Source: Bdellovibrionales bacterium (GTDB lineage: Bacteria > Bdellovibrionota > Bdellovibrionia > Bdellovibrionales > UBA1609). From it: 33,527 nucleotides of DNA. The notes beneath the pieces are model-generated. The model was not told the DNA's origin, made no database searches, and saw nothing but the letters and a program-made list of their open reading frames with translations. Shown here in pieces: positions 622 to 30,454 of the stretch (the first letter of the stretch is position 1; each line of letters begins with the position of its first letter). The translations under genes were made by a program, and so were the position numbers. Location: positions 18,496 through 52,022 of the forward strand of contig JABSOQ010000011.1 of NCBI GenBank assembly GCA_013216195.1, read 5' to 3'.

Positions 622-631
622 TGAGGCAAAG

Positions 632-1372
632 ATGAATTTATCAGGTTTGAATGTTGTTGCTGTTATTCCGGCTCGCTATGCCTCGACGAGGTTTCCGGGT
701 AAACCACTAGCAATGATCAAAGGCAAGCCCATGTTACAATGGGTTGTCGAGGCGGCAAAAGCGTCGAGCCTTTTATCAAAAGTGATCGTGGCCACAGATC
801 ATGGGCCCATCTTCGACCTAGCTGGAAAACTTGGTGTTGAGGCGGCCATGACAGCCGAGTCTTTGCCGACTGGCACAGACCGGGTTTATGCAGCCACTTT
901 GAATGAAGACTGTGATGTGGTTGTGAACATTCAAGGCGATGAGCCCTTGCTAACCCCTCAGCATTTGGATGCTCTGATTAAACCTTTTCATGAGGATGAG
1001 ACTGTCGACATGGCGACTTTGTGTGCAGAGATTCCTAGGCAAGATCTCGAGAGCCAAGACGTGGTAAAAGTTGTCAAAAACAAGCTCGGAGATGCACTGT
1101 ATTTCTCTCGGTATCCGATTCCGTATTCACGCCTTGACGCGCCGCCGTCTGATTTGGCATGTTGGAAGCATATTGGCTTGTACGCCTACAAGAAGAGCGT
1201 TTTAAAGGAGCTTTGTGCTCAGGCCCCTGTTGAGCTTGAGAGAGGAGAATCTCTTGAGCAGCTACGGGCTCTTCATTTGGGTAAGCGCATTCGAGTGGAA
1301 TTTGTCACTCAGGGCTTGCACGGAGTGGACAATCCCGAGGATATTGAGAGAGTCGAATCTCTATTGGAGTAA
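632..1372 (+). CDS. kdsB: 3-deoxy-manno-octulosonate cytidylyltransferase (CMP-Kdo synthetase)
   Basis: This enzyme uses CTP to activate Kdo to CMP-Kdo, the donor for inner-core LPS, in the cytoplasm. The N-terminal nucleotide-binding motif IPARYASTRFPGKPL and the motif VVNIQGDEPLL, around residue 95, are diagnostic of KdsB. The frame is open from 581, inside engB, but I chose the ATG at 632. It follows GTGAGG at 621-626 with good spacing and gives 246 residues against 248 in E. coli. The next gene is pyrG, which makes the CTP this enzyme consumes, and kdsD follows. That arrangement supports a Kdo-supply operon. Confidence 0.95.
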   Translation: MNLSGLNVVAVIPARYASTRFPGKPLAMIKGKPMLQWVVEAAKASSLLSKVIVATDHGPIFDLAGKLGVEAAMTAESLPTGTDRVYAATLNEDCDVVVNIQGDEPLLTPQHLDALIKPFHEDETVDMATLCAEIPRQDLESQDVVKVVKNKLGDALYFSRYPIPYSRLDAPPSDLACWKHIGLYAYKKSVLKELCAQAPVELERGESLEQLRALHLGKRIRVEFVTQGLHGVDNPEDIERVESLLE

Positions 1373-1381
1373 AAGGTAAAT

Positions 1382-3193
1382 ATGGCAAAGAAATCCATGC
1401 GAACCAGCAAGAAAAAGACCGCTAAAAAAGTCGCTAAGAAGACCACAAAAAAAACCAGCAAGAAGACGACCAAGAAAAAATCACCACTGAAGTCGCGATC
1501 GAACCCACTTGTGCAAAAGTTCATTTTTGTGACAGGAGGGGTTGTCTCATCAATTGGCAAAGGGCTTACAGCAGCGAGCTTGGGCACACTGCTTGAGTCA
1601 CGAGGGCTTAAGGTCTCAATAATGAAAGCTGACCCTTATATCAATGTGGATCCGGGTACGATGTCGCCACTTCAGCATGGCGAAGTCTATGTGACAGACG
1701 ACGGTGCTGAAACAGACCTCGATCTTGGCCACTATGAGAGGTTTACGAGCGTATCATTGAACCGTAGTAACAGCTTCACAGCTGGTCAGGTGTACGAGTC
1801 GGTAATTAGCAAAGAGCGAAAAGGTGATTATCTGGGTGGTACGGTTCAGGTGATCCCCCATATCACTGATGAAATTAAATCGAGAATTTTCGAAGCTGCT
1901 CAGGGTGCCGAGGTCACGATAGTTGAAATCGGCGGAACTGTGGGAGACATCGAGGGCCTACCATTTATTGAAGCTATCCGTCAGATGAGAGCTGATGTGG
2001 GCGTAGAGAACACTCTTTTTGTTCATGTGACTTACGTGCCCTACATCAAAGCGGCAGGAGAGCTCAAGAGTAAGCCAACTCAGCACTCTGTGAAAGAGCT
2101 TCGCGAGATTGGTATTCAGCCAGACTTTTTGATTTGTCGAAGTGAGAAAGAGATTCCTGATGAGGTAAAGTCTAAGATTGGTCTGTTTTGCAGCGTAAAC
2201 CCAGAGCGCGTCATTGCCGCTACAGATTCAAACTCAATTTACGAAGTGCCGTTGGTGCTTTATGAAGAGAAGTTTGATGCCAAGGTGGTCGAGGCTCTTA
2301 GCCTTGAGGCCACTTCAGCAAAAATGACCAACTGGGAAAAGATGGTAGACACATTAGTTCACCCTAAGCAGCAAACCTCAATTGGTATTGTTGGAAAGTA
2401 CGTCGATCTAAAAGAAAGTTATAAGTCTCTACACGAAGCTTTGGTTCATGGCGGTATCGCGAACAAAACCGGTGTGAATATTGTGTACATTGATTCAGAG
2501 AAGCTGACCGAAAAGAACGTTCACGGCGCTCTTGAGGGCGTCGATAGCATCTTGGTGCCTGGTGGTTTTGGTGCCAGGGGTGTCGAAGGTAAGATGGTGG
2601 CGATTCAGTATGCCAGAGAAAGCGAGATTCCCTTCTTCGGAATTTGCTATGGCATGCAGTTAGCCGCGATTGAGTTCGCACGTAATGTTTGTGGGATCAA
2701 AGATGCCACGAGCCGCGAATTTGACAAGCCCAAAAAGGGCCAGCGAAACATGGTTATCGACTTCATGGAAGAGCAAAAAAATATCGCAGACATGGGTGGA
2801 ACAATGCGGTTGGGAGCTTACCCTTGTTCATTGAAGAAAGATAGCAAGGCCCGTGACATTTACGGTGATAGTCTGATCCATGAGAGACACCGTCATCGTT
2901 ATGAGTTCAATAACAAGTTTCGTCCGATCTTTGAGAAGAACGGTATGACTTTGTCTGGAATCTGTAAAGATAGAGACCTTGTAGAGATCATTGAGATTAC
3001 TGAGCATCCTTGGTTTGTAGGTGTACAGTTTCACCCAGAGTTTAAGTCGAAGCCTCTTGATGCTCACCCTCTATTTACCGACTTCGTGAAGGCTTCTTTG
3101 AGCCGCGGGAGCTTGAACACTCGCTCTGCGCCGAAGAAGAAGGCGCGCGCGCGAAAGACCGTTCGAAATAGTCAAAAAGCAATGCGCGCATAG
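1382..3193 (+). CDS. pyrG: CTP synthase with Lys/Arg-rich tails at both ends
   Basis: The enzyme makes CTP from UTP, ATP and glutamine. The synthetase domain starts with [15 protein letters not shown] at about residues 47-61. The class I glutamine amidotransferase domain carries the nucleophile in GICYGMQ (Cys422) and a late HPEF histidine/glutamate pair. At 603 residues it is longer than the roughly 545 of the family. About 42 extra N-terminal residues are mostly Lys, Thr and Ser in AKK/TKK repeats, and the C-terminus ends in another basic stretch ([12 protein letters not shown]). The ATG at 1382 has GGAG about 11 bases upstream, and no methionine or strong start lies between the tail and the core. 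The tail therefore looks genuinely translated. It includes a run of eight A (1447-1454). The tail function is unknown; nucleic-acid binding or control of assembly are guesses. Confidence 0.95.
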
Positions 3194-3216
3194 TTTTCAG
3201 CCAGAGGAAGTAGTTT

Positions 3217-4194
3217 ATGAAGCTCGACATTGAAGAGGCGAAACGAGTTCTAGATATTGAGATAAGAGCTCTAAGCGATCTAAGAGATCGCCTTTCAGAG
3301 AGTTTTGTTAAAGCTTGCGACATGCTGATTGCGACTGAGGGCAAGGTGATTCTCACCGGAGTTGGTAAGTCTGGTCATATTGGTCGCAAAATCGCGAGCA
3401 CTCTTAGTAGTACCGGAACCCCCGCCCTCTACATTCACCCGACTGAAAGCTCTCATGGAGACCTCGGAGTCATCTCGAAAGGCGATTCGGTTATTGCAAT
3501 TAGCTACAGTGGAGAAGCCACTGAGTTAAATGACTTGATCACCTTCTGCGCTCGCAAAGACATTCCGCTATTGGCTTTGACTAGTAAAAAAGAGAGCGCC
3601 TTGGCTGAAGCAGCTAATGTAGTGCTCGATATCTCAGTAGCTGAAGAGGCTTGCCCTCTGAAGTTGGCTCCGACCTCATCATAGACTACGACTTTGGCAC
3701 TAGGAGACGCTCTAGCCATGGCTTTGTTTATGCGAAATGGTTTTCAAGAGCAAGACTTCGCTGAGTTTCACCCAGGTGGGGCTCTTGGGCGCAAGTTGCT
3801 CACTCGTGTTAGCGATGTGATGAGTTCAGATGATGAACTGCCGCTCGTAAGCCCTGATACGCCTGTTGCTGAGGTGATCGTTGTGATGACCGGCTATGGA
3901 AAAGGTACGGCCGCGATCGTCGACAGTTCAGGGGCTCTTGTAGGCTCAATAACTGATGGCGATATCCGTCGCTGTGTTGGTCGATCAAAGGGGCACCTCG
4001 AGGGAGTCGCAAAAGACATCATGACGGCAAATCCCAAAACGGTCGAAGCATCAGAGTTGGCTCAAAAAGCATTGTTCTTAATGGAGCAGTTTCGAATTAA
4101 TCTTCTTTATGTTGTAGATTCTCAAAGTGCCGACCCGAAGAAGCCTGTTGGGGTGTTGCACATTCAAGATTTGATGCGAGCTAATATTAGGTAG
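3217..4194 (+). pseudogene. kdsD: D-arabinose-5-phosphate isomerase KdsD/KpsF, interrupted by an in-frame UAG
   Basis: KdsD converts ribulose-5-phosphate to arabinose-5-phosphate, the first step to Kdo. Codons 1-155 encode the SIS sugar-isomerase domain, with GVGKSGHIGRKIASTLSSTGTP near residue 49 and ESSHGDLGVI near residue 75. A TAG at 3682-3684 follows APTSS. The same frame then continues with TTTLALGDALAMALF and two CBS domains to the stop at 4194. The whole frame is 324 residues plus the UAG, against 328 in E. coli KdsD. The UAG replaces one residue, probably Thr, of the conserved APTSSTTxT motif, with no frameshift. The downstream half could only start at a TTG (3694) with no ribosome binding site. 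The start at 3217 has AGAGGAAG upstream. Possible explanations are a true nonsense mutation, a sequencing error or read-through. UAG ends engB and pyrG here, so it is not simply reassigned. Confidence 0.85.
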
Positions 4195-4314: not shown

Positions 4315-5043
4315 ATGTTTAAGAAAATCGTAGCCTCAGTTCTTTTTTGTAGCGTGACCACTGCCAATATTGCGATCGCTGATACTATTGAGTTTCCCGA
4401 AGAGGAACTTGCCACTGAGACAGTCTTGCCGGTTTTTGAGAACCAGCGTGGGGTTTTGAACCGTGCTGTAGTCACCGAGGGAAGAATCGAAGTTGGCGCT
4501 GGAGCAGGGTTAGCTTTGAATGAGCCTTTTTACAACCCGATTAATGTGCACCTTCAAGGCACTTATCACTTTTCTGAACTTCACGCTCTTAACTTGTTTG
4601 GATTTTTCTTTATGTCGGGCCTCTCTCAGTACGGAGAGCAGCTTAGAACTGCTGACAATTTGGGTAACCCATTCGATGCGGGCGAAGCACCTGCTCCGCA
4701 AAGTCTACTCTTGGCCAACTATCAGATTCAGGCTTTTTACGGCAAAATCAGCTTAACAAAAAAGTCTGTGATGAACCTAGCTCTAGTCGGGCTTGTGGGT
4801 GCTGGTATGATGGGTTACGACTCGGGAGGCTCAGTACCTGCGGTTAATGCTGGGTTTGCTCAAAAGTTTTACTTCAGTGACAGTTTTGCCTTCCGCTTTG
4901 ATTTCAGGCTAGTTGCCTTTCAGGGGCCAGACCCAACTTCACAAGATTTAACTCCGGGTGGTAGTGCACCAGATCCAGGAGATTTTGATGACCAGCTGTA
5001 TTTCAATACCTATTTGACGGCTGGCTTAGTGTTTCTTCTTTGA
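4315..5043 (+). CDS. Putative outer-membrane beta-barrel protein (Glt/Nfs cluster)
   Basis: The protein has 242 residues. It starts with a signal peptide (MFKKIVASVLFCSVTTANIAIAD). The rest alternates short aromatic and hydrophobic strands such as VHLQGTYHFSELHALNLFGFF, and it ends in an aliphatic/aromatic strand (TYLTAGLVFLL) typical of outer-membrane barrels. The frame is open from 4225, but the ATG at 4315 gives a proper signal peptide, so I chose it. No ribosome binding site is visible; TAACAT at 4302-4307 could be a -10 box for a leaderless message. It heads a co-directional cluster of barrel, TPR, FHA and TolQ/R genes. By position it corresponds to the GltA/GltB-type barrels of Myxococcus, but sequence orthology cannot be shown here. 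Confidence 0.7.
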   Translation: MFKKIVASVLFCSVTTANIAIADTIEFPEEELATETVLPVFENQRGVLNRAVVTEGRIEVGAGAGLALNEPFYNPINVHLQGTYHFSELHALNLFGFFFMSGLSQYGEQLRTADNLGNPFDAGEAPAPQSLLLANYQIQAFYGKISLTKKSVMNLALVGLVGAGMMGYDSGGSVPAVNAGFAQKFYFSDSFAFRFDFRLVAFQGPDPTSQDLTPGGSAPDPGDFDDQLYFNTYLTAGLVFLL

Positions 5044-5396
5044 TTGATAACCTTAAATTTGCATCAGCACTTTAGTCTTAGGCCTTAGGTCTAAAGTAGC
5101 GTGTGTCAATGAGCTCTCAAGCAGATCAAATCTTGGTTTGCTAACGAACTTTATCATCTCTCGTAGGCTGCCAGAGCAAAAACTAGGTTCGCATAACCTA
5201 ATTTGATTTGATCGACCTAAGTCGAGCAAAGCGCTAGTATGAATCAGCTTTTTGACTCAATTCTTATCATCGAGGCAACTAGAAAAAGTGCAGTCACTGT
5301 CAGCACTTAGTCTAGATTCAGCACTGAGTCGTTTAGCTTCTCTTAATCATTTTGATAACCTAGGGTGAGTTTACATTCAACTTGAAGGACATCTTA
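5044..5396 (+). other. Long intergenic region with several hairpins
   Basis: This gap of about 350 bases separates the two barrel genes and has no supportable ORF. It holds several inverted repeats: ACTTTAG/CTAAAGT (5069-5097), TAGGTT/AACCTA (5184-5200), TCGAC/GTCGA with a four-base loop (5212-5225), and an imperfect 21-base palindrome AGTGC...GCACT (5287-5307). It also holds three copies of a TCAGCACT motif. None of the stems has a proper T tract, so they are not standard terminators. The region probably contains the promoter and leader of the downstream cluster. TTGACT at 5255 has no convincing -10 box at the right distance. Confidence 0.5.
5064..5330 (+). repeat. Three dispersed copies of TCAGCACT(T)nAGTC
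   Basis: TCAGCACTTTAGTC occurs at 5064-5077, TCAGCACTTAGTC at 5300-5312 and TCAGCACTGAGTC at 5318-5330. The last two are spaced 18 bases start to start, and the first is about 235 bases upstream. Such spacing could reflect binding sites for a regulator or local duplication. The function is unknown. Confidence 0.5.
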
Positions 5397-6209
5397 GTGA
5401 AATTGACTCGTTACGTTCAGTGCTTACTCTTGATTTGTGTTCTGAGTCAGATACCAGCTGCATTGGCTCAATTTGATGATGCTCAAGAAAAGAAAGAATC
5501 AAGCGAAGTTGAAAACCTCTACGATACTTTTGACAAACAAGAGGCCCGCCGAACTAGAGGTAAAAGAATCAAACAAAAAGAAATACCTGAGCCGTCGAGA
5601 TTGGCGGATCTTGCAACACTTGAGCCCTTTAGTGACATTGCTGTAATTCAGAGAAGGTTTTTACCTAAGACGGGTCGCTTTGAATTTTCAGGTTCATTAA
5701 TGGCAAGTGTGAATAACCCTTTCTTTAGCAACTTAGGTTTTGGGGCTCGAATCGCCTATTATTTTAACGAAAAGCACGGAGTCGTTGGGCAGTACTACTT
5801 TCTCTCGAACTCTGAGCGCGACGTGACCTCAAATCTAGAGCAAGAGCGTGGTATTGAGACCAAGAGTCTGACGACTCCCAAGAACTATGCTGGCCTGGCA
5901 TATAAGTGGACTCCTCTTTATGGAAAGATGACTTGGTTGAACAGGGACATCGTGCCGTTTGATTTGTTTTTCACTCTTGGGGGAGGAACCACAAAAACTG
6001 ACCTTGGTAACCAAGAGCCTACGATCCACATCGGCACAGGCCAGGTGTTTGCGATTTCGAAAGGTATGGCAGTTCGTTGGGATCTTTCTTGGAACTTCTA
6101 TCAAGCCGAAGCACTTGATGACAACGATGAAACCATAACTAATAGCCAAGATGATTTGTTTTTGATGATAGGCATGAGTTTCTTCTTTCCGGAGGCCACC
6201 TACAGATGA
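5397..6209 (+). CDS. Second putative outer-membrane beta-barrel protein (Glt/Nfs cluster)
   Basis: The protein has 270 residues. The frame is open from a TTG at 5382, but I prefer the GTG at 5397. It has AAGGA at 5386-5390 with seven-base spacing and gives a clean signal peptide (MKLTRYVQCLLLICVLSQIPAALAQ). A charged linker (residues about 25-75, rich in Glu, Lys and Arg) leads to a strand-rich region. There FEFSGSLMASVNNPFFSNLG, ARIAYYFNEKHGVVGQYYF and the closing LFLMIGMSFFFPEATYR look like barrel strands. The layout recalls the outer-membrane beta-barrel domain family common in Myxococcus and Bdellovibrio. Its stop overlaps the next gene's ATG (ATGA), so the two are translationally coupled. 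A role beside GltA/B-type barrels is inferred from context. Confidence 0.72.
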   Translation: MKLTRYVQCLLLICVLSQIPAALAQFDDAQEKKESSEVENLYDTFDKQEARRTRGKRIKQKEIPEPSRLADLATLEPFSDIAVIQRRFLPKTGRFEFSGSLMASVNNPFFSNLGFGARIAYYFNEKHGVVGQYYFLSNSERDVTSNLEQERGIETKSLTTPKNYAGLAYKWTPLYGKMTWLNRDIVPFDLFFTLGGGTTKTDLGNQEPTIHIGTGQVFAISKGMAVRWDLSWNFYQAEALDDNDETITNSQDDLFLMIGMSFFFPEATYR

Positions 6210-7849
6210 TCACTCAAGTCACACGTGTAATAGCATTGTTTCTAGCGGTCTCACTTGCAGCACAAGTTCAAGCGGAGGGGTTTGGTATTGATCCCACGGC
6301 TGACTCAGAATCGCAGATCTTGCAGATGTTAGAAGGCTTTGAAGGTGAAAAGGTACTGGTTGCTCAAAGAAGCCGTGGCTCTTCGTCAACTTCTGGCAAC
6401 GACCTTGTTAATGCTCTGAGGCTTGCGAAGCAGAAAAACTATAAAGATGCCTCCATGGCGTTGTTTCGCTTGGGCTATTCGCCTAAGTACAGATCGAGAA
6501 GGATGCAGATCAAGTACATTCTGGGGCTCATGCTGTTTCAGATGAGAATGAATCAGGTTGCTGCCTTCCAGTTCATTCAGGTTATCAAAGAGGGTAGGAG
6601 TAAGTACTTAAAGCAAGCGATTGAAAAGCTATCACTTGCCGCCGACTTCCTGGGTGATGACACGCTTTTGAATTATGCGATTTCGAGAGTAAAGGTAAGC
6701 CAGTTCCCGAGGGTGCACCGAGATATGCTGTATTACAGAATCGGTGAGTATCAATATCGAAACGGGCAGTTCTCAGCGGCTGCGAGCAGTTTTAATCGAG
6801 TGGCTTCAAATAGCAGTCTCTATTCATCTGCTAAGTATCAGCAAGGGTTAGCCTATGCGAATCAAAACAAAGCCAAAAAGGCCTTATCGTCATTTAATGA
6901 GCTTATCGACTTTAGAAACAGCAAGGGTATAACAGACAAGGCACGTGTCGCAGCTCTAGCTGGTCGGGCACGAATTGCTTATCAGGCGAAAGACTGGGAC
7001 CGTGCTGTTCAGTTCTACAGGCAAGTGCCTCGTGACACTAAAATTTGGCATGACACTTTGTTCGAGTCGAGTTGGGCGATGTTGAGGTCGGGCCGGTTTA
7101 GATCTGCCCTTAGTAATTTTCACTCGATTCACTCAGCATATTACGAAGACTTTTATCTTCCGGAGTCATTGCTGCTACGATCGATCGTCTACTTGTATAT
7201 CTGTAAATACCAAGAGATGGACAAGGTGCTTAACCTGTTCAATAAGATCTACAGGCCAGTCTTTGTTCGAATTGATAAGATGCTTGACCGAAGGCCTAAG
7301 GCATCGGATTACTTTGAGGATGTCATTCGTGCTTTGATTCAATACAAGCGATATGGTGACGATCTCGACACGAGTAAGTTTCAGATCCCATTCTTGGTAA
7401 CAAGGCGATTGTTGCAAGAGGGTGACTTTCAAAATTCTTACAGTTACATTAAAAAGCTGCTTAAAGAGCGAAAGAGAATTCAATCGATGCCTGCATCTTG
7501 GAGAGCCTCATCGATTGGTAAGTATGCATCACGCGTTCTAAGAACACGGTTGGTAAAGGCTCGCGACAGAGCTGGGCGCCAAATTCGCACACATCTCGAG
7601 ACGATTAAAGATGAACTGTTTGATCTTTTTGAGCAAGAGGGATTCATTCGTTACGAAATGATCAATGGCAAAAAAGAATTGCTGAAAAAGAAGATCTCAC
7701 AAAAAGATCTTCCTACAGAGCAAGTTGATGAAAAGTCTGACCGCGATTACTACATACAGAATGGCTACGAGTATTGGCCTTTCCGTGGAGAGTACTGGTT
7801 AGATGAGTTGGGGAACTACCATTATGTTGGAACGCAAGCCTGTCAGTAA
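6206..7849 (+). CDS. Secreted TPR-repeat protein, GltE/AglT-like by position
   Basis: The protein has 547 residues. It opens with a signal peptide ending near VQA (residue 23), followed by a helical repeat domain. TPR-like helices recur, for example ASMALFRLGYSPKYRS, YRIGEYQYRNGQFSAAASSF, KYQQGLAYANQNKAKKALSSF and AGRARIAYQAKDWDRAVQFY. The C-terminal third is charged and ends in an aromatic-rich stretch. The ATG at 6206 follows GGAGG about 11 bases upstream and overlaps the previous stop. There is no lipobox cysteine at the signal cleavage site, unlike some AglT homologues. A periplasmic scaffold role alongside the larger TPR protein downstream is likely. The specific Glt name is inference from cluster order only. 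Confidence 0.72.
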   Translation: MITQVTRVIALFLAVSLAAQVQAEGFGIDPTADSESQILQMLEGFEGEKVLVAQRSRGSSSTSGNDLVNALRLAKQKNYKDASMALFRLGYSPKYRSRRMQIKYILGLMLFQMRMNQVAAFQFIQVIKEGRSKYLKQAIEKLSLAADFLGDDTLLNYAISRVKVSQFPRVHRDMLYYRIGEYQYRNGQFSAAASSFNRVASNSSLYSSAKYQQGLAYANQNKAKKALSSFNELIDFRNSKGITDKARVAALAGRARIAYQAKDWDRAVQFYRQVPRDTKIWHDTLFESSWAMLRSGRFRSALSNFHSIHSAYYEDFYLPESLLLRSIVYLYICKYQEMDKVLNLFNKIYRPVFVRIDKMLDRRPKASDYFEDVIRALIQYKRYGDDLDTSKFQIPFLVTRRLLQEGDFQNSYSYIKKLLKERKRIQSMPASWRASSIGKYASRVLRTRLVKARDRAGRQIRTHLETIKDELFDLFEQEGFIRYEMINGKKELLKKKISQKDLPTEQVDEKSDRDYYIQNGYEYWPFRGEYWLDELGNYHYVGTQACQ

Positions 7850-10800
7850 GGCATTGCACATTGGGTTGAACGGAGTTTTGTCAGTAGCGGTGCTACTGTC
7901 GATGCCAACCTATGCCCAGAAAAGCAAAACTGTAGGTGATCTTTTAAAAGGCATCCAGACAGATGCAAAGCGAGTCAATCTCAACAAAAGAAGATCTTCG
8001 CTACCAACATTCAAGAAGATGCAGAAGTCGAGCGCGGTGAGGGCCCGAAAAATTAAGCCGCCTTCAAGTGGTAAGCTTTACTATGAAGAGGGCACAAACG
8101 AAGCCGAGCTAGAGAAAATCACAGATGAGGGCATCCGCCAACTAGTCAAGTTGACCAATCGATTTCGTAGAAGCTCGAAAAGAGGTGAGCTGTGGTTGAG
8201 GCTAGCTGAGCAATATGTCGAAAAGGCCCGTCTCATCGAGTATCGCCTGCAACAAAACTACGATGACCAAATCAAAGCCTATGAGCAAAAGAAGAGAAGA
8301 AGTCGGCCAAAGCTAAATTTGAAGCCCGCTCAGAAGTACAACGTAGAGGCAATTAAACTGTACGAAGACTTTATGCGCGAGTTTCCAAAAGACAAGAAGA
8401 TACCACAGGCTCTTTTCTTCTTGGGATATAACTACTTTGAGTTGAATCAGACAACTAAGGGTGAAGGCTTCTATAAGCAACTTACGAAGAGGTTTCCGAA
8501 AAGCCCCTATGTAGACCAATCGAACTTCGCATTAGGTGAATTCTACTTTGAAAATGAGAAGTGGGATAAAGCTCTAGTGCACTACCTCAAAGTGGCACGA
8601 AATAGTCGCTCGAGACTGTTCTCTTTTGCCAAGTATAAAGCAGCATGGTGTCAGTACAAAGTGGGGCAGCTTAAGCAAGCCTTGCGATCACTCGAAGGCG
8701 TGATAGCTGCTGGTCGTAAAGCGAAGAGCGCAGACAGTCAGGGTGGTGTTAGTCGAATTCGATTGGCCTCAGAAGCACTGAAAGATCTGATCATCTTTTA
8801 CGCCGAGGTCGGGTCAGCTGGGGGGGCTCGTAGCTACTTCAGAAAGGTTGCGGGAGAACGCGCTGTTTACAACATGCTAGAGAAATTGGCCTACTACTAT
8901 TCAGATACGGGTGCCAAACAGTCAGCGCGAGCAGTCTTCAAAGAGCTGATCGATTGGAGACCAAACTCTGCAAAAGCATATGATTATCAGTATCAAATAG
9001 TGACCATGTACATTGCTGCAGGTAACAACAAGGTCTTCAAAGATGAGCTCTACAACTGGATTGAAAACTATGGGCCAGAAAGTGTCTGGTCGAAAGCCAA
9101 TGCAGAGAAACCCGATTTAATTAAAAAGGCAAGCCAGCTCATTGAGACCACGCTGCGCAACTACATTCTTCAACAGCATCAGACGGCACAGAATTCGAAA
9201 GCGGCTTATTCTCAGAAGCAAGCCTCAACGGGCTATGAGCTTTACTTCACGACGTTTAAAGAATCGCCCCGCCTTGATGAAATGCATTTTTTCTATGCAG
9301 AGCTTCTGTTCGATATGCAGAAGTGGTCTCGAGCGGCCTATCACTATTTGTGGGTTGTCAATTCTTCGCCTAATAGCAAGTACTACGAAAAGGCCAACCT
9401 AAACTCAATCTTGGCTTTGGAGAAGAGCCTGCCATCTGGAGAAGAGATCAAAAAGATTGTTGGCAAGACAACAGAGCCAGTTCCATTCGACAAGACCCTA
9501 AGGGTGTTTGAAAAAGTGGCTCTGAACTATGTCAAAAAGTACCCGAATGGTGAGAACAGTGTAGCGATCGAATACCGATTGGCTTCGATCTATTACTATT
9601 ACAACCAGTTTGATAAGGCCCTTGAGCGTTTTGAGAAAATAGTGGAGCAGCATCCGAAAACAAAATACGCAGAGTATTCGGCCAACTTGATTCTCGACAT
9701 CTACAACATTAAGAAAGACTACATTGGTCTCCAAAAAGCTGGTCGAAAGATCTTGGCGATACCGCAGCTCGCGATCTCTCCTGTTGGTGCGCAGATTCGA
9801 ACGATTCTAGAGCGAGCAAGTTTCACCGAGGCCCAGCAAATGGAGCAGTCGAAAGATTACCTAAAGGCTGCCGCCTCTTATGAGAATTTCGCACTAAAGA
9901 ACCCGAAGTCAAACCTTGCTATGACTTCATTCTTTAACGCCGCTATCAGTTATGAGAAGGGGGGCAACCTATTCAAAGCTTTGGCGATGTATGAGATAAT
10001 CTCAAGTAGAGCAAAAGGCAAAGATCTCGCTCTGAAGAAAAAGTCTGAGCGAATCACACCTTCGCTTTACGAAAAAACAGGTCAGTATGAGAAGGCTGCA
10101 GAAGCGTTTGAGCGATTCGCCGCCCAGAACAAGAAAGACAAAGAGTCGGCCAATTTTTACTTTAATGCAGCGGTCATTCGAGACGGGATGAAGTTCTACA
10201 CGGCTGCAATTCGCAATTACGACCAGTATTTTAGAAAGAGCCGAAATCTTGAGAGAAAAGAGGCTTTGTTTTTGATAGGGCGAATCTGGGAGCGTCGTAA
10301 CAATCTTCGTCAAGCCACTGCTTGGTATGAGAAGTACATGAATAGTAACCCGATCAATGCCGGTGGTGTTATTGAGGCTTCTTATCGGTTAGCCAAGATC
10401 TATGAAAGGCGAAAGCGTAAGAAGCAGGCCGAAGAGTGGTACAAAAAGACAGTGGCCATTCAGCGCCGATTGTCGAGCAAAACAAAGAACCTCGGAGTCT
10501 CATACGCTGCGGAGTCGAAGTTTAAGCTTGTTTACAAAACTTATGAAGAACTGAGACGGGTTAAGATTCCCAATAGCCCAGCGGCTCAGAAGAGAGCTGT
10601 AGATAAAAAGCTTGGTCTCATAAACAGGCTGAAAGAAGAGCTCAAACAAGTCATTAAATATGATGATGGTTTTCAGATAGTTGCATCTCTTGCTTTGATT
10701 GGCCAAGCTTATCAGCATATGAGCGCGGCAATTTTCAACGCTCCTTTGCCAAAGGGTCTCGATAAGGCGGGTCTTCAGCAGTACAAAACCGCAATTGCTG

Positions 10801-10994
10801 GTGTGGCAAAGCCGTTTCAGGATCAAGCTGTTGAAAACTACATTGCTGCTATTCAAAAGGCCGAGCAGCTTGAGGCTTACAATAGCTGGGTCAAGATCGC
10901 TCGAACCGAGCTCTACAACATCGACAGTGAGAAGTATCGTAGATTTGATTTTGAAGTGTTTTTAACCAAAGTACCTGACTGGATGGAGAACTAG
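7824..10994 (+). CDS. Large secreted TPR-repeat protein, GltD/AgmU-like by position
   Basis: The protein has 1056 residues from the ATG at 7824, which I prefer to the ATG at 7803. The later start gives a standard signal peptide (MLERKPVSKALHIGLNGVLSVAVLLSMPTYAQ) and has GGGG about 11 bases upstream. It overlaps the previous gene by 26 bases. TPR units run through almost the whole length, for example ALFFLGYNYFELNQTTKGEG, NFALGEFYFENEKWDKALVH and EYRLASIYYYYNQFDKALER. Basic segments are frequent. In Myxococcus the giant periplasmic TPR protein AgmU/GltD sits in the equivalent gene set. The size and context match, though TPR proteins cannot be assigned by repeats alone. Confidence 0.75.
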   Translation: MLERKPVSKALHIGLNGVLSVAVLLSMPTYAQKSKTVGDLLKGIQTDAKRVNLNKRRSSLPTFKKMQKSSAVRARKIKPPSSGKLYYEEGTNEAELEKITDEGIRQLVKLTNRFRRSSKRGELWLRLAEQYVEKARLIEYRLQQNYDDQIKAYEQKKRRSRPKLNLKPAQKYNVEAIKLYEDFMREFPKDKKIPQALFFLGYNYFELNQTTKGEGFYKQLTKRFPKSPYVDQSNFALGEFYFENEKWDKALVHYLKVARNSRSRLFSFAKYKAAWCQYKVGQLKQALRSLEGVIAAGRKAKSADSQGGVSRIRLASEALKDLIIFYAEVGSAGGARSYFRKVAGERAVYNMLEKLAYYYSDTGAKQSARAVFKELIDWRPNSAKAYDYQYQIVTMYIAAGNNKVFKDELYNWIENYGPESVWSKANAEKPDLIKKASQLIETTLRNYILQQHQTAQNSKAAYSQKQASTGYELYFTTFKESPRLDEMHFFYAELLFDMQKWSRAAYHYLWVVNSSPNSKYYEKANLNSILALEKSLPSGEEIKKIVGKTTEPVPFDKTLRVFEKVALNYVKKYPNGENSVAIEYRLASIYYYYNQFDKALERFEKIVEQHPKTKYAEYSANLILDIYNIKKDYIGLQKAGRKILAIPQLAISPVGAQIRTILERASFTEAQQMEQSKDYLKAAASYENFALKNPKSNLAMTSFFNAAISYEKGGNLFKALAMYEIISSRAKGKDLALKKKSERITPSLYEKTGQYEKAAEAFERFAAQNKKDKESANFYFNAAVIRDGMKFYTAAIRNYDQYFRKSRNLERKEALFLIGRIWERRNNLRQATAWYEKYMNSNPINAGGVIEASYRLAKIYERRKRKKQAEEWYKKTVAIQRRLSSKTKNLGVSYAAESKFKLVYKTYEELRRVKIPNSPAAQKRAVDKKLGLINRLKEELKQVIKYDDGFQIVASLALIGQAYQHMSAAIFNAPLPKGLDKAGLQQYKTAIAGVAKPFQDQAVENYIAAIQKAEQLEAYNSWVKIARTELYNIDSEKYRRFDFEVFLTKVPDWMEN

Positions 10995-11830
10995 TGGTGA
11001 GATTGATTTGTTTCATTATTGTTGCATCCATAAGCATTGTCGATACAAGCTATGCTCAGTTTGATGGCAACAATGATTCATCATCAGTGTCTAGAAGTTC
11101 GGCAAACCCTGAAGTAAGGGTAGAGAAATCAGATATTAGAGAGATTTTTAAGAAGAGAGAAATAAAAGACGACGAAGGCTTCGTCTTCGCGGTTTCAAGG
11201 GTTTTGGGAAAAGATCAGAAGAATCTTTTGGCTTTGAATGCTCTTGCCGTACACTATATAGAGCGCGGAAAGATCGGGTTGGCGAAGATCGTGCTTAGCA
11301 GAGCTCTGGAAGCTCATCCAAGTTCACATACCATTCATAATAATCTTGGTATCATTCATCTGTCTGAAAATGAGCAGAGAAAAGCGATCAATGCCTTTAA
11401 AAAGGCCATTGAACTCAAGTCTGATTATGAGATTGGGTTGGCGAACTTAGGTTCGATCTACGTCGAATATGGGGATTATCCGCGGGCTGTTGAACCCTTA
11501 GAAGAGGGCTATGGTGTTGTTCGGCAGCAAATCAAGCAAAGAAATGAAGATGCAATCAAAGTGGCTAGCAATTACGCCGTCGCTTTGGCTGGTACCGCTC
11601 AGTTTGAGAAGGCAAAGGGAGTCTATGAAGAGATTCTTGAGGCAGACTCGCGTAATGTGGGAGTGCTTTACAACTTTGCCTCTTTGTTAATCGAAAACTT
11701 GCAGAAAGCTGAGCAGGGAAGAAAAGTTCTTTCGCGGCTCAAATTTGTAGCAGACGACAAAGCGTTGTTAGCAAAGGCTAAGAAGCTAGAGGCTGCGCTC
11801 GAAGCAATTGAGGAACAAAAAAGTCAGTAA
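10994..11830 (+). CDS. Secreted TPR-repeat protein (Glt/Nfs cluster)
   Basis: The protein has 278 residues. The start is GTG at 10994, overlapping the previous TAG, or the GTG immediately after it at 10997. GGAG at 10984-10987 serves either. The signal peptide is MVRLICFIIVASISIVDTSYAQ. A low-complexity Ser/Asn linker leads to at least three TPR units, seen in ALNALAVHYIERGKIGLAKI, HNNLGIIHLSENEQRKAINA and LANLGSIYVEYGDYPRAVEP. Its size and TPR content resemble GltC/NfsC-type proteins that connect periplasmic and outer-membrane parts, but that match is tentative. The next gene follows 11 bases after the stop, with a strong ribosome binding site. Confidence 0.7.
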   Translation: MVRLICFIIVASISIVDTSYAQFDGNNDSSSVSRSSANPEVRVEKSDIREIFKKREIKDDEGFVFAVSRVLGKDQKNLLALNALAVHYIERGKIGLAKIVLSRALEAHPSSHTIHNNLGIIHLSENEQRKAINAFKKAIELKSDYEIGLANLGSIYVEYGDYPRAVEPLEEGYGVVRQQIKQRNEDAIKVASNYAVALAGTAQFEKAKGVYEEILEADSRNVGVLYNFASLLIENLQKAEQGRKVLSRLKFVADDKALLAKAKKLEAALEAIEEQKSQ

Positions 11831-11841
11831 GGAGGCTTGCC

Positions 11842-12114
11842 GTGCAAAAGAAAAAGACTACACTTATGGCTGTAAGCTTTTTGCTTTTGACTGGCCTTTG
11901 GTCCTCTATAGGTTTGGCCCAAAACGACAAGCGTAAAGCTACAATCGATTTTGAGGATGAGTTGATTGAAGGTGAAGTGAAAAAGCCAGAATTGTTCTAT
12001 TTGTTGCAGAAAAAGCAATTCAACTTTAAGAGGCTCATTAAACTTAGAAAGAACTTTATTCCCGAAATGGAAAGAACCTCAGAAGAATTGAGACACACCG
12101 GGAGAAAAAATTGA
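11842..12114 (+). CDS. Small secreted protein, possible GltF/CglF homologue
   Basis: The protein has 90 residues, starting at GTG 11842 with AAGGAGG at 11829-11835 and ideal spacing. A signal peptide ends near GLAQ (residue 27). The mature part is short and charged: an acidic stretch (IDFEDELIEGE) followed by PELFYLLQKKQFNFKRLIKL and RKNFIPEM. The late LIKLRKNFIPEM pattern and the placement just before an FHA/AgmX-type protein recall the myxobacterial gliding protein GltF/CglF. This is recognition from memory, not a search result. The stop overlaps the TTG start of the next gene, so the two are coupled. Confidence 0.6.
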   Translation: MQKKKTTLMAVSFLLLTGLWSSIGLAQNDKRKATIDFEDELIEGEVKKPELFYLLQKKQFNFKRLIKLRKNFIPEMERTSEELRHTGRKN

Positions 12115-14399
12115 AACAACCTGTCGTACTTCGGATATATCTCAATGGCAAACTTGAAGGGGTGAAGCAATTCACTGATCCCCAGATTGTCTTTGGGCGC
12201 AACCCAGAGGCACAGGTAGATTTGCAAGATGAAGATGTATCACTACTCCACGCTGCTATTGTTGAGCAGGATGGAAAATATGTCATTTCAGATATGGGCA
12301 CTCAGTCTGGCACCTTTGTAAATGGAGAAAAAGTCTTAGAGGCTGAGGTTCAGTCTGAAGATGAGATTCAAATTGGGCCCTATCAGATTCAGTTTTTCGT
12401 TGGCATCCCCAAGCCAGGTTCTTTGGCTCCAAAGGCCGGCACTGTTGTCACTACTGTGGCTAAGCCAACTGAGACTGAAACTGCTAAAGAAGAACCTGCC
12501 AGCCAGGAGCCTGTGAAGAAAGAAGACCCTCGGCCTGAACCTGAAAAAGAGCAAGCAGCTCAAGAAAGAGCCGCCGAAGAAAAACAGCCTGATGCCAGTT
12601 CAGACGCTGAAGCAAAATTGCGACATAAAGAAGCAGAAGAGCGGTCTGCTCAAGACTGGGAACCGCCACCTGTTGCCAATCAGGGCAAAAAAGTAGAGCC
12701 AAAACCTGAGCCTATTGCCGCGCCTAAAGAAATTGACGAAAAGACTGACCCGGCAATGGAGATGGAAGCTGAATTAACTGAGCCTGGTCAAATGGAACTT
12801 CCTGAGCTGACAGACCCTGGTGTCACTCCAATCACACAGACAGTCGAAGATCGTCGCACTAAAGAGACAGTGACATTTACGCCGAGCGGAGGCATCCCGA
12901 ATCCGGTAAAGAAGACCAAAAAGACTTTTGCGCCACCTAGCCAAAAAGAAGCGATCGAGATATTGAAGCCATCTAAGGGTACGGTCATTGAGGTGGTAGT
13001 GGCGTGGAAAGAGAGAATTATCAGTTCTCATCATTTTCATAACAAAGGTGTCGTCACCATCGGCTCATCAGAAAAGGCTGATATTGTTGTGCCGGTCATG
13101 CAAGGCGTGAGCTCGTATCCTTTAGTAGAAATCGGAGCACTCGCATCGGTGAATGTTGCGCCGAATACGCCAGGTGATCTGATAGACCAAAATCGCAAGA
13201 CTTCGTTCGCAGACTTGGCAAAAGCCAACCGTTTCAAGGCGAACAAGGTGGGGCATCAGATCGACCTTGCTCAGGGCGAGATGGTTCGAATTGGTTTTCA
13301 GGGTGGCCTTATTAACGTTTACGTTCGCTATGTGCCAGAAACCCAAAAGCCACTTGTTGCGCCATTCTTAGACCTAACAGCGTCAGAAGTTACGGGAGTG
13401 ATTCTAGCCGCGGTTGTGTCAGCGATTTTTGGTGTTTATATGTTCCTGTACTCGCCAACAAACTTGAATGATGAGGCGAGGCTTGAAGAGCCAATTCGAA
13501 AAGCCACGGTGACCTTTAGGCCGCCAAGGAGAATTAAAAAACAGATTATTGAGGCTAAACAAAAGCCAGAGAAGAAACCTAAGAAAGTAGTCAAAGTTGT
13601 TAAAAAGCAAAAGAAGACGAAGACTCCTTCTAAGACCAAGGCGGGTAAGGTTGGTAAAGCAGGAGAGGTTGCTCCTAAAAAGACCAAGTCGACTAAGAAA
13701 AAGGTGACTTCAGCTCGCCCTGGTGGAGCTATTAAGACTGGTAAGAAAAAAGGCGCCAATATGAAGAGCCGAAAGCCAGACCCGAGTAAGGTAGGTTTGC
13801 TCAGCGTATTTGGCTCTAAAGGAGCACAAAAGAAGCTCGATAAAGCGTTCAGCGGCTCTGGCGAATTGATGGGAATGGCTGATCAAGCCACAGGTTACGC
13901 CGGTGATAATGAGAACAGAGCTGGTGACACATTGGGAACCAAGATCAAAGATACCGGCGCTGGTGGTAAAGGCCAGCAAGCTGTCGGTATCGCAGGTGTG
14001 GGAACCAAGGGTAAAGGCACAGGCACTTATGGTCTCGGTACTGGTGGTATTGGAACCAAAGGTCAGGTTGAGATCAACGTCGGCGGTCAAGCTGCAGAGT
14101 TCGTGGGCTCAATGGATAGAGAGGCCATTCGAAGAGTGATCTTGAATAACAAACGGGCCATTCGTTCGTGCTATGAGCGAGAGCTACAACGCCGGCCAAA
14201 TATGTACGGTAAGCTAGTTCTACAATGGAACATAGAAGAAAAAGGAAAAGTCACTGAAGCAAAGGTGAAATCAAACTCCCTTGGCTCAAACAAAGTGGCG
14301 TCTTGTATTATTTCGCGATTGAGAACATGGAGATTTCCGGAACCACCACCAGGCACAATTGGGCAGGTTTCGTATCCGTTTGTTTTCACTTCGCAATAA
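12111..14399 (+). CDS. FHA domain, transmembrane and AgmX/PglI C-terminal domain protein (GltG-like)
   Basis: The protein has 762 residues, starting at TTG 12111 with GGGAG at 12100-12104. The N-terminal FHA domain (about 1-98) has the phosphothreonine-binding pattern: GR at 29-30, S44, H47 and NG at 71-72. A Glu/Pro/Lys-rich linker, a second globular cytoplasmic region (about 285-420) and one transmembrane helix (VTGVILAAVVSAIFGVYMFL, about 428-447) follow. The periplasmic part has Lys/Pro-rich and Gly-rich stretches (GTGTYGLGTGGIGTKG). It ends in a TonB-like AgmX/PglI C-terminal domain with AIRSCYERELQRRP and LRTWRFPEPP. This is the layout of GltG, the inner-membrane protein that links AglRQS motors to the periplasm. 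The TolQ gene starts 16 bases later. Confidence 0.85.
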   Translation: MKQPVVLRIYLNGKLEGVKQFTDPQIVFGRNPEAQVDLQDEDVSLLHAAIVEQDGKYVISDMGTQSGTFVNGEKVLEAEVQSEDEIQIGPYQIQFFVGIPKPGSLAPKAGTVVTTVAKPTETETAKEEPASQEPVKKEDPRPEPEKEQAAQERAAEEKQPDASSDAEAKLRHKEAEERSAQDWEPPPVANQGKKVEPKPEPIAAPKEIDEKTDPAMEMEAELTEPGQMELPELTDPGVTPITQTVEDRRTKETVTFTPSGGIPNPVKKTKKTFAPPSQKEAIEILKPSKGTVIEVVVAWKERIISSHHFHNKGVVTIGSSEKADIVVPVMQGVSSYPLVEIGALASVNVAPNTPGDLIDQNRKTSFADLAKANRFKANKVGHQIDLAQGEMVRIGFQGGLINVYVRYVPETQKPLVAPFLDLTASEVTGVILAAVVSAIFGVYMFLYSPTNLNDEARLEEPIRKATVTFRPPRRIKKQIIEAKQKPEKKPKKVVKVVKKQKKTKTPSKTKAGKVGKAGEVAPKKTKSTKKKVTSARPGGAIKTGKKKGANMKSRKPDPSKVGLLSVFGSKGAQKKLDKAFSGSGELMGMADQATGYAGDNENRAGDTLGTKIKDTGAGGKGQQAVGIAGVGTKGKGTGTYGLGTGGIGTKGQVEINVGGQAAEFVGSMDREAIRRVILNNKRAIRSCYERELQRRPNMYGKLVLQWNIEEKGKVTEAKVKSNSLGSNKVASCIISRLRTWRFPEPPPGTIGQVSYPFVFTSQ

Positions 14400-14415
14400 A
14401 AGGGGGTAATGAACC

Positions 14416-15102
14416 GTGGAAGAACAGTTAGCAACACAGGTTGTTGATGAGTGCGCTCAGTACAGCAACTTTATAATGAAATCTTTCTGCCAAGGTGGTC
14501 CGGTAATGATCATCATTTTGGTAGTCTTTTTGATTGTACTTTTTTTGATTGTCGAAAGGCTACTTAGCCTTCAGCGACTTACTGTTGATAAGACAAGCAT
14601 CAACGAGAACCTATTCAGCATGCTTCTAAGGGGCGAGGTCAAACAGGCCATTTCGTTCTGTGATTCGAGACCGACTCCTCTGACAAACACTTTGAAGTCA
14701 GGCCTAGTTCAGGTGATGAACCGTAGACCAGATGAAGAGGTGCAGGTCGCAATGGATGCCAGCGTTTTGAGAGAAACCCCAAGGTTAGAGGGCTGGACTT
14801 CGTTCTTGGCTGTTTTCGGTAACGTTGCGGTTTTGATCGGTTTGATGGGAACGATCATCGGTTTGATCACTTCGTTTAGTGCCGTTGAGCAGGCCGACAA
14901 TGCCACGAAAGCCGCGTTGCTTTCAAAGGGTATTTCTGAAGCACTGAACTGCACAGCTTTCGGTCTTCTTGTCGCGATTATAGCGATTGTGTCTTTTGGT
15001 TACTTCCAGATCAAAATTGGGAAGGCGATCAATGACATGCAAGAGAGCTCGATGACAATGATGAATCTAGTCGTGGCGAACCGCGATAAGGTTAAAGACT
15101 AA
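14416..15102 (+). CDS. TolQ/ExbB/MotA-family proton channel subunit (AglR-like)
   Basis: The protein has 228 residues. The GTG at 14416 is preceded by GGGGG (14402-14406). It has the three membrane spans of the TolQ family: about residues 29-47, 129-153 and 172-196. The long cytoplasmic loop lies between spans 1 and 2. The family signatures GLMGTIIGLITSF and ISEALNCTAFGLLVAI are clear. With the two downstream TolR-type proteins it should form a proton-motive-force motor in the inner membrane. Because it follows the GltG-like gene and lacks TolA, TolB or Pal partners, I read it as AglR rather than TolQ. The name is inferred from context. Confidence 0.88.
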   Translation: MEEQLATQVVDECAQYSNFIMKSFCQGGPVMIIILVVFLIVLFLIVERLLSLQRLTVDKTSINENLFSMLLRGEVKQAISFCDSRPTPLTNTLKSGLVQVMNRRPDEEVQVAMDASVLRETPRLEGWTSFLAVFGNVAVLIGLMGTIIGLITSFSAVEQADNATKAALLSKGISEALNCTAFGLLVAIIAIVSFGYFQIKIGKAINDMQESSMTMMNLVVANRDKVKD

Positions 15103-15129
15103 CCCGAGATCTAAGAGGAAGCACAGTTT

Positions 15130-15606
15130 ATGGCTCATATAGATGATTCAGGTGGATCGAACAAAAGATCAGCAAATGTTGATGTCAACATTGTACCTTT
15201 CATCGATTTGATGAGCGTCTTGATTATTTTTCTTTTGATCACGGCTGTATGGACGCAAGTTTCAATGATTCAAATCGGTAGTTCAATATATGGAAAGAAA
15301 ACAGCTCAAGAAAGGGCGGAACCCCCTCCCAAAGCTGAGATTCCATTTCGCCTCGACGTGAGAGAAGAGGGCTACCGAATTATATTGGGTCGTCAATCCA
15401 CCAATGTGCCAAAAAAGGGTGGGGATTACGATACTGAGAGACTGGTTGAAGAGCTGAAGAAGATCAAAGAGCTTTACCCCGAAAAGGTAGACTCAGTCGT
15501 GACTGTGCTTGATGAGCTGCCATACGAGACTTTAATTCATGGAATGGATGCTTTGCTGACGGCAGGTTTTCCGCAGATTTCTGTGGCAACAGCAGGAGCG
15601 AACTAA
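15130..15606 (+). CDS. TolR/ExbD-family motor stator protein (AglQ/AglS-like, first copy)
   Basis: The protein has 158 residues, with a short cytoplasmic N-terminus and one membrane span. The span contains the essential proton-carrying Asp26 in VDVNIVPFIDLMSVLIIFLL. A periplasmic ExbD-type domain follows, ending in a VVTVLDELPYETLIHGMDAL helix-strand. The ATG at 15130 follows AGAGGAAG about ten bases upstream. Its stop overlaps the next gene's ATG by one base. TolR-type pairs next to a TolQ are typical of the AglR/AglQ/AglS set. Confidence 0.88.
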   Translation: MAHIDDSGGSNKRSANVDVNIVPFIDLMSVLIIFLLITAVWTQVSMIQIGSSIYGKKTAQERAEPPPKAEIPFRLDVREEGYRIILGRQSTNVPKKGGDYDTERLVEELKKIKELYPEKVDSVVTVLDELPYETLIHGMDALLTAGFPQISVATAGAN

Positions 15607-16196
15607 TGGCGATTCGTGTTCCCGGAAAAAGAGCGAGAAGAGGGCATGTTCAGTCGACCAAAAGAAGTGCGGTAGCCGTTTTACAGCTGACCGCGATGGT
15701 TGATATGTTTACTGTTTTGGTTGTGTTTCTGTTGCAGAACTATGCGACGACAGATCAAATTCTACCCATGCCTGAAGCTGTTGAATTGCCACAAGCAAAA
15801 ACCGTAAAAGAATTAGCGCCGTCGAATGTCGTTGTGATTACAGAGCAAAATGTTCTTGTGAATGAAACCAAAGTGGCCACTTTTGCATTGGTCAAAGAGT
15901 CGAAAGACTGGATGATTGTAGAAGTTGAAAAAGCCGTAAAGAACTTGATTGAAGAAGGTGAAGAAGAAAAGCTTCGTCTAGGTGCTCAGATTCAAAAAGC
16001 CGTATCAGAGGCGAGAGAGGGTGAGTCACCTGAAGATTTAGTCGATGAGTTCCGTAAGATCACCATTCAAGCCGATAGCAAAATTGACTTCCTTACCGTA
16101 AAGAAAATTATGTACACCGTCACCGAAGCAGGCATATATGAAATTAACTTTGCCGTGGTGAAAAAACCAGAAGAGATCGGTGGGCTGGATCTCTAG
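15606..16196 (+). CDS. TolR/ExbD-family motor stator protein (AglQ/AglS-like, second copy)
   Basis: The protein has 196 residues, starting at ATG 15606 and sharing one base with the previous stop. A very basic N-terminus (RVPGKRARRGH) precedes the single membrane span. Asp33 in LTAMVDMFTVLVVFLL sits at the proton-binding position. The periplasmic part is longer than in the first copy, with an acidic helical insert (about 100-145, EEGEEEKLRLG). It still ends in the ExbD-like strand pattern. Two dissimilar TolR subunits beside one TolQ match AglQ plus AglS. It is the last gene of the cluster before a hairpin at 16266-16292. Confidence 0.86.
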   Translation: MAIRVPGKRARRGHVQSTKRSAVAVLQLTAMVDMFTVLVVFLLQNYATTDQILPMPEAVELPQAKTVKELAPSNVVVITEQNVLVNETKVATFALVKESKDWMIVEVEKAVKNLIEEGEEEKLRLGAQIQKAVSEAREGESPEDLVDEFRKITIQADSKIDFLTVKKIMYTVTEAGIYEINFAVVKKPEEIGGLDL

Positions 16197-16364: not shown

Positions 16365-16808
16365 ATGTACCTTGTTCAGTTAATTTATGCGAGTCGAATT
16401 GATCGAGAGAACTTTCCAGACAATGGGGCCCGCATGATTCAAGAAGCCTCAGCCAAAAACAATAGAGATTTAGATATCACCGGGGTCCTGTTTTGTGATG
16501 GAACTCACTTCTTACAAGCTATTGAAGGGTCTAGGTCTAACGTTTCAAAACTGTACAACAAGATTGCAACCGACCCTAGGCACCTGGATGTTACCATTTT
16601 GCGGATGGCTGATGTGGCTGTTAGGGATTTTGCACACTGGTCTATGGAACTTTTGAGCTACAAGGCTGACACGGTTAACACACTGAAGCGGTTCTCGATC
16701 TCAAAAGACTTTGATCCCTTTTTGTTATCAGCTGACAGTTTGCGCGAAGTTCTGATCTATCTAGCTGAGCAGCAAGAAGTGGGTTTGAATCAAAAGAAGG
16801 CCTCCTAG
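16365..16808 (+). CDS. BLUF-domain blue-light sensor
   Basis: The protein has 147 residues and is almost entirely one BLUF domain, a flavin-binding blue-light sensor. The key photocycle residues are all present: Tyr8 (LIYAS), an Asn at 32 or 33, Gln51 (FLQAIEG), Trp92 and Met94 (HWSMEL). The conserved DITGVLFCDG and DPRHLDV segments are also visible. No output domain is attached, so it should act by binding a partner, as short BLUF proteins such as PixD do. The ATG at 16365 has AGGGAGGG just upstream. It sits between the Glt-like cluster and a PilZ protein, which suggests a link to motility or surface behaviour, but nothing in the sequence proves this. Confidence 0.92.
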   Translation: MYLVQLIYASRIDRENFPDNGARMIQEASAKNNRDLDITGVLFCDGTHFLQAIEGSRSNVSKLYNKIATDPRHLDVTILRMADVAVRDFAHWSMELLSYKADTVNTLKRFSISKDFDPFLLSADSLREVLIYLAEQQEVGLNQKKAS

Positions 16809-16947: not shown

Positions 16948-17658
16948 TTAGGCTGCAGAAACTTGCCGAATGGCTGAAGCTTCGGCACCTTTAACATAAG
17001 ACACGATTCTTGATATAGCCTCGCGGTTGATCTGCGAAAATTTAAAGCCAGCAAACTGACTTTCAGATACGTATCGCACCTGAGCAGTTGCATGCACTGT
17101 GGGCATACTTTCAGACTGAATTTCGATTGCCACTTCTGTACCAGCGACTAAGCCCGAAACGTTCAATGCACCAAAGCCGCCTTCACTGATTGTTTTCAAC
17201 TGCCCAATAATGGTCTGACTCTCTGAGAGATTAATGATCACTTTGCCCTCAATTGGCGCTCTCGGGTAGGCCCTACGGTTTACGCCAACTTCATCCATCA
17301 GATCGTGAAACTCGTGAATTGGTGCCCAGTTCGGCATTCCTTTTGTCCAGATCAAAGCCGAGTTGGGATCGCCCGTCACTTTTTTGAGTTCTGACACGAG
17401 CTGTTTTCTCGACATGGGCCCGTAGGATTGGCCTTGCATAGCGTAGTGCCAAAGCCGGTCATCAAAGTTGTTCTGCAGCCTAGATAGCAGCTCATCTAAG
17501 TTCGAGTGCCACCAACTCAGTGGTTTCCAGTCGGATTGTGCTTGGCCCCATACCAGAGCCTCTGAGCTTACGGAGCCCAATTGCACTTTCTGCTTGAGCT
17601 CATCGGTAGAAAATGGGCCTTCTATGCGCTCATTGTGAAAAGTAAACCACTTAGCCAT
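16948..17658 (-). CDS. GYF-GYF-PilZ domain protein
   Basis: The protein has 236 residues and no signal peptide or membrane span. Two GYF_2-type modules occupy about 1-50 (KWFTFHNERIEGPFSTDELK, then SDWKPL) and 69-117 (LWHYAMQGQSYGPMSRKQLV, then MPNWAPI). A PilZ domain occupies about 127-225. PilZ normally binds cyclic-di-GMP through RxxxR and [DN]xSxxG. Here R129-AYP-R133 is present, but the second motif is TISEGG, with Thr157 in place of Asp/Asn. GYF domains bind proline-rich peptides, and the Myxococcus gliding protein AgmX/GltJ also has a cytoplasmic GYF domain. The ATG at 17658 lacks a clear ribosome binding site. It is convergent with the BLUF gene and divergent from lptC. Confidence 0.85.
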   Translation of the reverse strand: MAKWFTFHNERIEGPFSTDELKQKVQLGSVSSEALVWGQAQSDWKPLSWWHSNLDELLSRLQNNFDDRLWHYAMQGQSYGPMSRKQLVSELKKVTGDPNSALIWTKGMPNWAPIHEFHDLMDEVGVNRRAYPRAPIEGKVIINLSESQTIIGQLKTISEGGFGALNVSGLVAGTEVAIEIQSESMPTVHATAQVRYVSESQFAGFKFSQINREAISRIVSYVKGAEASAIRQVSAA

Positions 17659-29692: not shown

Positions 29693-29712
29693 AGCACAAT
29701 GAGGAGTTGCTC

Positions 29713-30453: not shown

Positions 30454-30454
30454 T

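Follow-up and report, generated by a model that had tools for sequence, protein, structure and literature searches.

The window, a 33,527-nucleotide stretch from a draft genome of a Bdellovibrionales bacterium (4.1 Mb in 296 contigs), carries ten genes at positions 4315–16196, all on the plus strand, that probably encode the Bdellovibrionales version of the Agl/Glt machine, a proton-driven apparatus predicted to serve surface gliding and contact with, and attachment to, prey. An earlier, sequence-only reading had marked out these ten co-directional genes as two barrels, three secreted TPR proteins, a small secreted protein, an FHA protein, a TolQ protein and two TolR proteins; coordinates, profile matches and collinearity in relatives all agree with that description. 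The genes are as follows.

4315–5043, plus strand: GltA-like outer-membrane beta-barrel with signal peptide (TIGR04565 OMP_myx_plus, 5.7e-24, above cut-off)
5382–6209, plus strand: GltB-like outer-membrane beta-barrel with signal peptide (TIGR04565 OMP_myx_plus, 4.1e-29, above cut-off)
6206–7849, plus strand: GltC, secreted TPR protein (NF033756 gliding_GltC, 2.5e-63, 215 bits)
7824–10994, plus strand: GltD-like secreted TPR protein of 1056 amino acids (TPR matches, GltD position)
10994–11830, plus strand: GltE-like secreted TPR protein (NF033758, 1.7e-17)
11842–12114, plus strand: GltF/CglF small secreted protein (NF033764, 2.6e-11)
12111–14399, plus strand: GltG, with a cytoplasmic FHA domain, one transmembrane segment and a periplasmic AgmX/TonB-like C-terminal domain
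14416–15102, plus strand: AglR, TolQ-like proton channel subunit (PF01618 MotA_ExbB, 7e-28)
15130–15606, plus strand: AglQ, TolR-like subunit (PF02472 ExbD/TolR, 7.7e-16)
15606–16196, plus strand: AglS, TolR-like subunit (PF02472 ExbD/TolR, 5.3e-12)

In profile scans, nine of the ten genes match gliding models, OMP_myx_plus models or motor families. GltG matches NF033760 over residues 1–761 (6.4e-82), the FHA family PF00498 (8.3e-16) and, through its AgmX/PglI C-terminal domain, NF033768 (8.8e-33, above cut-off). A profile of GltE orthologues scores 109–151 bits on myxococcal proteins in the GltE position, and the corresponding GltF profile matches myxococcal GltF/NfsF. The locus thus holds an AglR-family subunit, two TolR subunits, GltG, GltC/D/E with GltF, and the GltA/GltB barrels. 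Some details of the frames should be noted. The ATG of the first barrel gene (GltA) at 4315 is nested in a longer GTG frame from 4225, GltD could alternatively start at the ATG at 7803, and the end of the GltE signal peptide has no lipobox cysteine. Single-sequence structure prediction of the second barrel (GltB) was uninformative (pLDDT, the predicted local distance difference test score, of 39), and neither Rfam nor tRNA scanning of the window gave a hit.

Identity of the motor

By similarity and phylogeny, the TolQ/TolR-type proteins of the cluster are AglR, AglQ and AglS, not TolQR or ExbBD. Window AglR is 43% identical to Myxococcus AglR (155 bits; the next match reaches 31% and 88 bits), and in a tree rooted with the TolQ and ExbB proteins of Bdellovibrionales all Agl-type proteins split from these same-order relatives with support of 100/99, which bears out the AglRQS-type motor proposed from the sequence alone. 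The Myxococcus proteins were reached through MglA relatives, the MglA query having been checked against its PDB sequence. Window-type AglR proteins form one clade in the rooted tree (97/94), and a concatenated motor tree supports the window-type set at 100/100. The two different TolR-like subunits, AglQ and AglS, each have a membrane motor aspartate. AglQ Asp26 aligns with the motor residue Asp28 of M. xanthus AglQ, which is required there and for which a D28N phenotype is described (PMC3858216), and AglS Asp33 is conserved in the alignment with Myxococcus. One tree makes the M1 motor of Myxococcus the sister group (88/86), a placement absent from the rooted tree; approximately unbiased (AU) tests of the window motor paired with the M1 motor gave p values of 0.20 (AglR) and 0.48 (concatenated motor), which do not firmly reject the pairing.

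The TolQ/TolR domains assigned by Pfam would also fit a standard TolQR or ExbBD system whose neighbors have nothing to do with it. We rejected this explanation, which we regard as highly improbable, on the rooted tree with its 100/99 split, the two different TolR subunits, the gliding-profile matches of GltC, GltF, GltG and the barrels, and collinearity across the order. In that tree and those profiles, we saw neither a grouping of the TolQ/R proteins with TolQR or ExbBD nor a lack of Glt/Nfs similarity among their neighbors, the pattern that the sequence-only reading had named as fatal to its proposal.

Conservation in the order and the Bdellovibrio orthologue

The order GltA-GltB-GltC-GltD-GltE-GltF-GltG-AglR-AglQ-AglS is identical in all 22 other Bdellovibrionales loci fetched, with the GltA-like gene first in the collinear set of every relative, and recurs in five further loci, including that of an HD100-like genome; a sixth is cut by a contig end. 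This degree of collinearity means that the cluster is not a chance run. In about 12 relatives (loci L161–L165, L167, L169, L176, L177 and L186–L188), GltD and GltE share a single frame of about 1230–1300 amino acids: nine of the 22 loci have no separate GltE frame, their GltD measuring 1234–1299 amino acids, and three of the five further loci have one frame matching both proteins. Such fusion suggests that the two proteins act together.

A survey of 192 genomes of the phylum (threshold E ≤ 1e-40) recovered GltC orthologues from 68 of the 69 Bdellovibrionales but from none of the 123 other genomes, 104 of the 192 being assumed to lie outside the order. The single exception (G208, 94% complete) has a different, more distant set, and genomes of only 1.2–1.5 Mb retain the cluster. 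In one complete genome (G031, 2,657,893 bp), the window-type set is the only three-gene motor set; its four MotA_ExbB proteins are the window-type AglR, two proteins each paired with just one TolR-type partner, and a weak match of 305 residues, which is taken to be flagellar MotA. MglA is present in 38 of 38 Bdellovibrionales tested and in the genome of the window. Taken together, these comparisons indicate that the single-cluster layout is the normal and ancestral state throughout the order rather than a compact innovation.

For the Bdellovibrio counterpart, we turned to a single-contig genome (G093, 3,782,950 bp) with four three-gene motor operons, at 0.398, 0.787, 1.403 and 2.282 Mb, the third of which has a GYF-PilZ gene and a gene for a lipoprotein of the metal-ion-dependent adhesion site (MIDAS) type at its 5′ end. 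B. bacteriovorus HD100 has four agl operons, Bd0412–0420, Bd0828–0838, Bd1473–1483 and Bd2368–2377 (PMC2797640), with Bd1482 a PilZ protein (PMC3271064) and Bd1483 a MIDAS protein (PMC11003981). We infer that G093 is HD100 because its operon positions fit the locus-tag order and the PilZ and MIDAS genes stand at the third operon. Gene order and phylogeny identify the window cluster as orthologous to Bd0828–Bd0838: both have the same ten genes, motor and envelope parts together, in the same order, and the AglR, motor and GltD trees each put the two into one clade. The window differs in having Kdo (3-deoxy-D-manno-oct-2-ulosonic acid) genes upstream and a GYF-PilZ gene beside the cluster, the latter unlinked in the HD100-like genome.

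Luciano et al. described Bd0828–Bd0838 in 2011 as one agl plus glt cluster and the best candidate for Bdellovibrio gliding, together with four expanded sets in Bdellovibrio and the split loci of Myxococcus (PMC3169522); the window thus repeats a layout already known from Bdellovibrio. The sequence-only reading was right that the Myxococcus equivalents are dispersed, but its view of the one-run layout as an unusual compact version does not stand, as the layout is order-wide here and single-region complexes were known in 2011 (PMC3169522). Its suggestion of a predation-related role does find support in the orthologous operon. Transposon mutants of Bd0838 (AglS) do not attach to, kill or round prey, and Bd0836, the AglR gene by gene order, was reported to be required for predation and to be among the candidates from a cyclic di-GMP (c-di-GMP) pulldown (PMC6561027).

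Retention in nearly every Bdellovibrionales genome, those of 1.2–1.5 Mb included, would also be consistent with a general, Tol-Pal-like machine for envelope maintenance that is needed for growth, with defects in gliding or attachment being secondary. We think this rather unlikely: the same genomes carry separate TolQR/ExbBD-like pairs of one R and one Q subunit, transposon insertions in Bd0838 are viable in an axenic library (PMC6561027) and one of the 69 genomes does without the GltC orthologue, though it keeps another set.

Branch placement and proposed function

The AglR, GltG, GltD and concatenated motor trees all place the window in a single Bdellovibrionales clade inside the Agl/Glt family. 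In the GltD and GltG trees, the window-type set lies apart from its myxococcal counterparts, and Glt and Nfs mostly cluster with each other (92/94 in one tree and 78/85 in a second GltD tree). In AU tests, pairing with Glt gave p 0.07 and pairing with Nfs p 0.18, neither of which is firmly rejected. For the choice between Glt, Nfs and a third branch, which the sequence-only reading had left to phylogeny, the best statement from these trees is that the window cluster represents a third, Bdellovibrionales branch, co-orthologous to Glt and Nfs.

The M. xanthus Agl-Glt system (G1, G2 and M1) has homologues of its GltA–G and AglRQS proteins in the window, the AglQ Asp28 position included, yet is split over three loci whereas the window has one cluster. 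Its GltH, GltI, GltJ, GltK and CglB proteins are without counterpart in the window cluster. The machine is thus complete, as the sequence-only reading had called it, for GltA–G plus AglRQS and not for GltH–K, none of which lies inside the cluster, the whole genome not having been searched for each singly. The core complex known from Geobacter and other bacteria that do not glide, compared here by its published description, likewise joins the motor with GltC, D, E and G in one region, but is without GltA, B and F and includes one additional gene that Bdellovibrionales do not have (PMC3169522).

The Nfs sporulation machinery of M. xanthus raises a further possibility, namely that the window machine transports or wraps a surface polymer in coat or envelope assembly instead of serving gliding or prey contact. 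Nfs, too, is a single cluster, in its case of GltA–H paralogues, and shares its motor with the gliding machinery (PMC3858216); moreover, the profile of window-type GltD orthologues scores NfsD about as high as Glt (506–508 bits, against 517 bits on Hyalangium GltD), and the AU test does not reject the pairing with Nfs. By contrast, the window has its own dedicated AglRQS motor directly after GltG, which Nfs does not have, its set forms a clade separate from Nfs in the GltD and GltG trees, and the defect of the Bd0838 mutant is one of prey attachment (PMC6561027). We consider an Nfs-like task quite unlikely.

We propose instead that the ten genes form an Agl/Glt machine for gliding and prey contact, with a force path modeled on Myxococcus. 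Given its family and its motor aspartates, the AglR channel with the AglQ/AglS pair would act as a proton-driven motor in the inner membrane. GltG, which reaches from an FHA domain in the cytoplasm to a TonB-like end in the periplasm, could pass the work on to GltC, GltD, GltE and GltF; in the Myxococcus system, AglR binds GltG (PMC3169522). Force would then reach the outer-membrane barrels GltA and GltB, as interaction data from Myxococcus imply, and the moving outer-membrane complexes could provide traction both for surface gliding and for contact and attachment on prey. This path is drawn by analogy, as is the precise task of the machine at the surface of the uncultured window species.

Several points weigh against this proposal. 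First, the machine of the window organism is known from its genes. Second, the NCBIfam equivalog cut-offs, set for myxobacterial gliding proteins, are missed by GltG (276 of 650 bits), GltC (215 of 450), GltE (64 of 225) and CglF (43 of 90), so that these four are family homologues rather than equivalogs of the Myxococcus proteins. Third, the detailed mutant phenotype covers one gene of the orthologous operon, the last, and the name HD100 for the comparison genome is our own assignment, not given directly. Finally, Bdellovibrio has four such operons, and surface-induced expression has been reported for bd1480, the aglQ of another one (PMC9140294), so that gliding may run on a different set.

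Paralogous sets and neighboring genes

The genome of the window contains three more Agl/Glt-like sets, each with AglR, AglQ and AglS homologues, on contigs C33 (locus L019), C295 (L020) and C229 (L021), giving four sets in total, as in Bdellovibrio. Their AglQ genes lie as follows.

L019, 7822–8379: paralogous AglQ gene
L020, 5099–5563: paralogous AglQ gene
L021, 7429–7860: paralogous AglQ gene

In these three sets and in the Bd1473-type locus L198, the AglQ column corresponding to M. xanthus Asp28 holds Ala, Ser or Gly and the AglS aspartate is kept, a pattern that hints at motors in which just one aspartate is active. A secreted protein resembling von Willebrand factor A/MIDAS proteins (L021, 1054–2661), encoded next to the motor genes on C229, has a DRSGS motif and a match to PF13519 below the cut-off (5e-4), and is a possible CglB-like adhesin. 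A motorless mini-cluster, GltB-GltC-GltF-GltA (L184, 5754–9078, at 3.49 Mb in G093), is nearer to the window set than are the other paralogues and might, like Nfs, depend on a shared motor.

Directly upstream of the window cluster lie the Kdo-pathway genes KdsB, CTP synthase and KdsD (581–4194), and KdsD stands upstream in 13 of 22 relatives. The KdsD-type arabinose-5-phosphate isomerase frame (3217–4194) is interrupted by an in-frame TAG at 3682–3684, either a nonsense mutation or an assembly error; in one relative (L158), the frame is intact at 341 amino acids. A BLUF blue-light sensor gene directly downstream of AglS (16365–16808) was dismissed as a machine part, none being found beside the clusters in relatives' loci. 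Farther away, 28652–31138 holds a tandem of three signal-peptidase-like frames (28652–29692, 29707–30453 and 30455–31138). One further neighbor could bear on how the machine is controlled.

16948–17658, minus strand: GYF-GYF-PilZ protein, candidate c-di-GMP input (GYF_2, 7.3e-23; PilZ, 2.2e-9)

The sole PDB match of this protein is the GYF domain of Myxococcus AgmX/GltJ (7z3c, 7.6e-4). The gene is present in 31 of 34 Bdellovibrionales, the three smallest genomes being without it, and in 16 of 30 genomes no more than 16 kb separates it from GltC. The motor genes of the C33 set, like those of the HD100 Bd1473 set, have a related GYF-PilZ gene next to them. Control by c-di-GMP extends to prey entry in Bdellovibrio. 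Because c-di-GMP signaling also controls Bdellovibrio gliding (PMC3271064), the GYF-GYF-PilZ protein is a candidate control input. A tentative and somewhat doubtful extension is that the machine is commanded by this soluble protein instead of a membrane GltJ, with GYF replacing the GltJ input domain and PilZ conferring the response to c-di-GMP.

According to a 2026 review, the motor behind Bdellovibrio gliding and the parts that transmit its force have yet to be identified (PMC13104615). The near order-wide presence of the window-type set, and its standing as the sole three-gene motor set in G031, help to decide between the four paralogous operons; the linked PilZ protein offers a possible control input to the machine.

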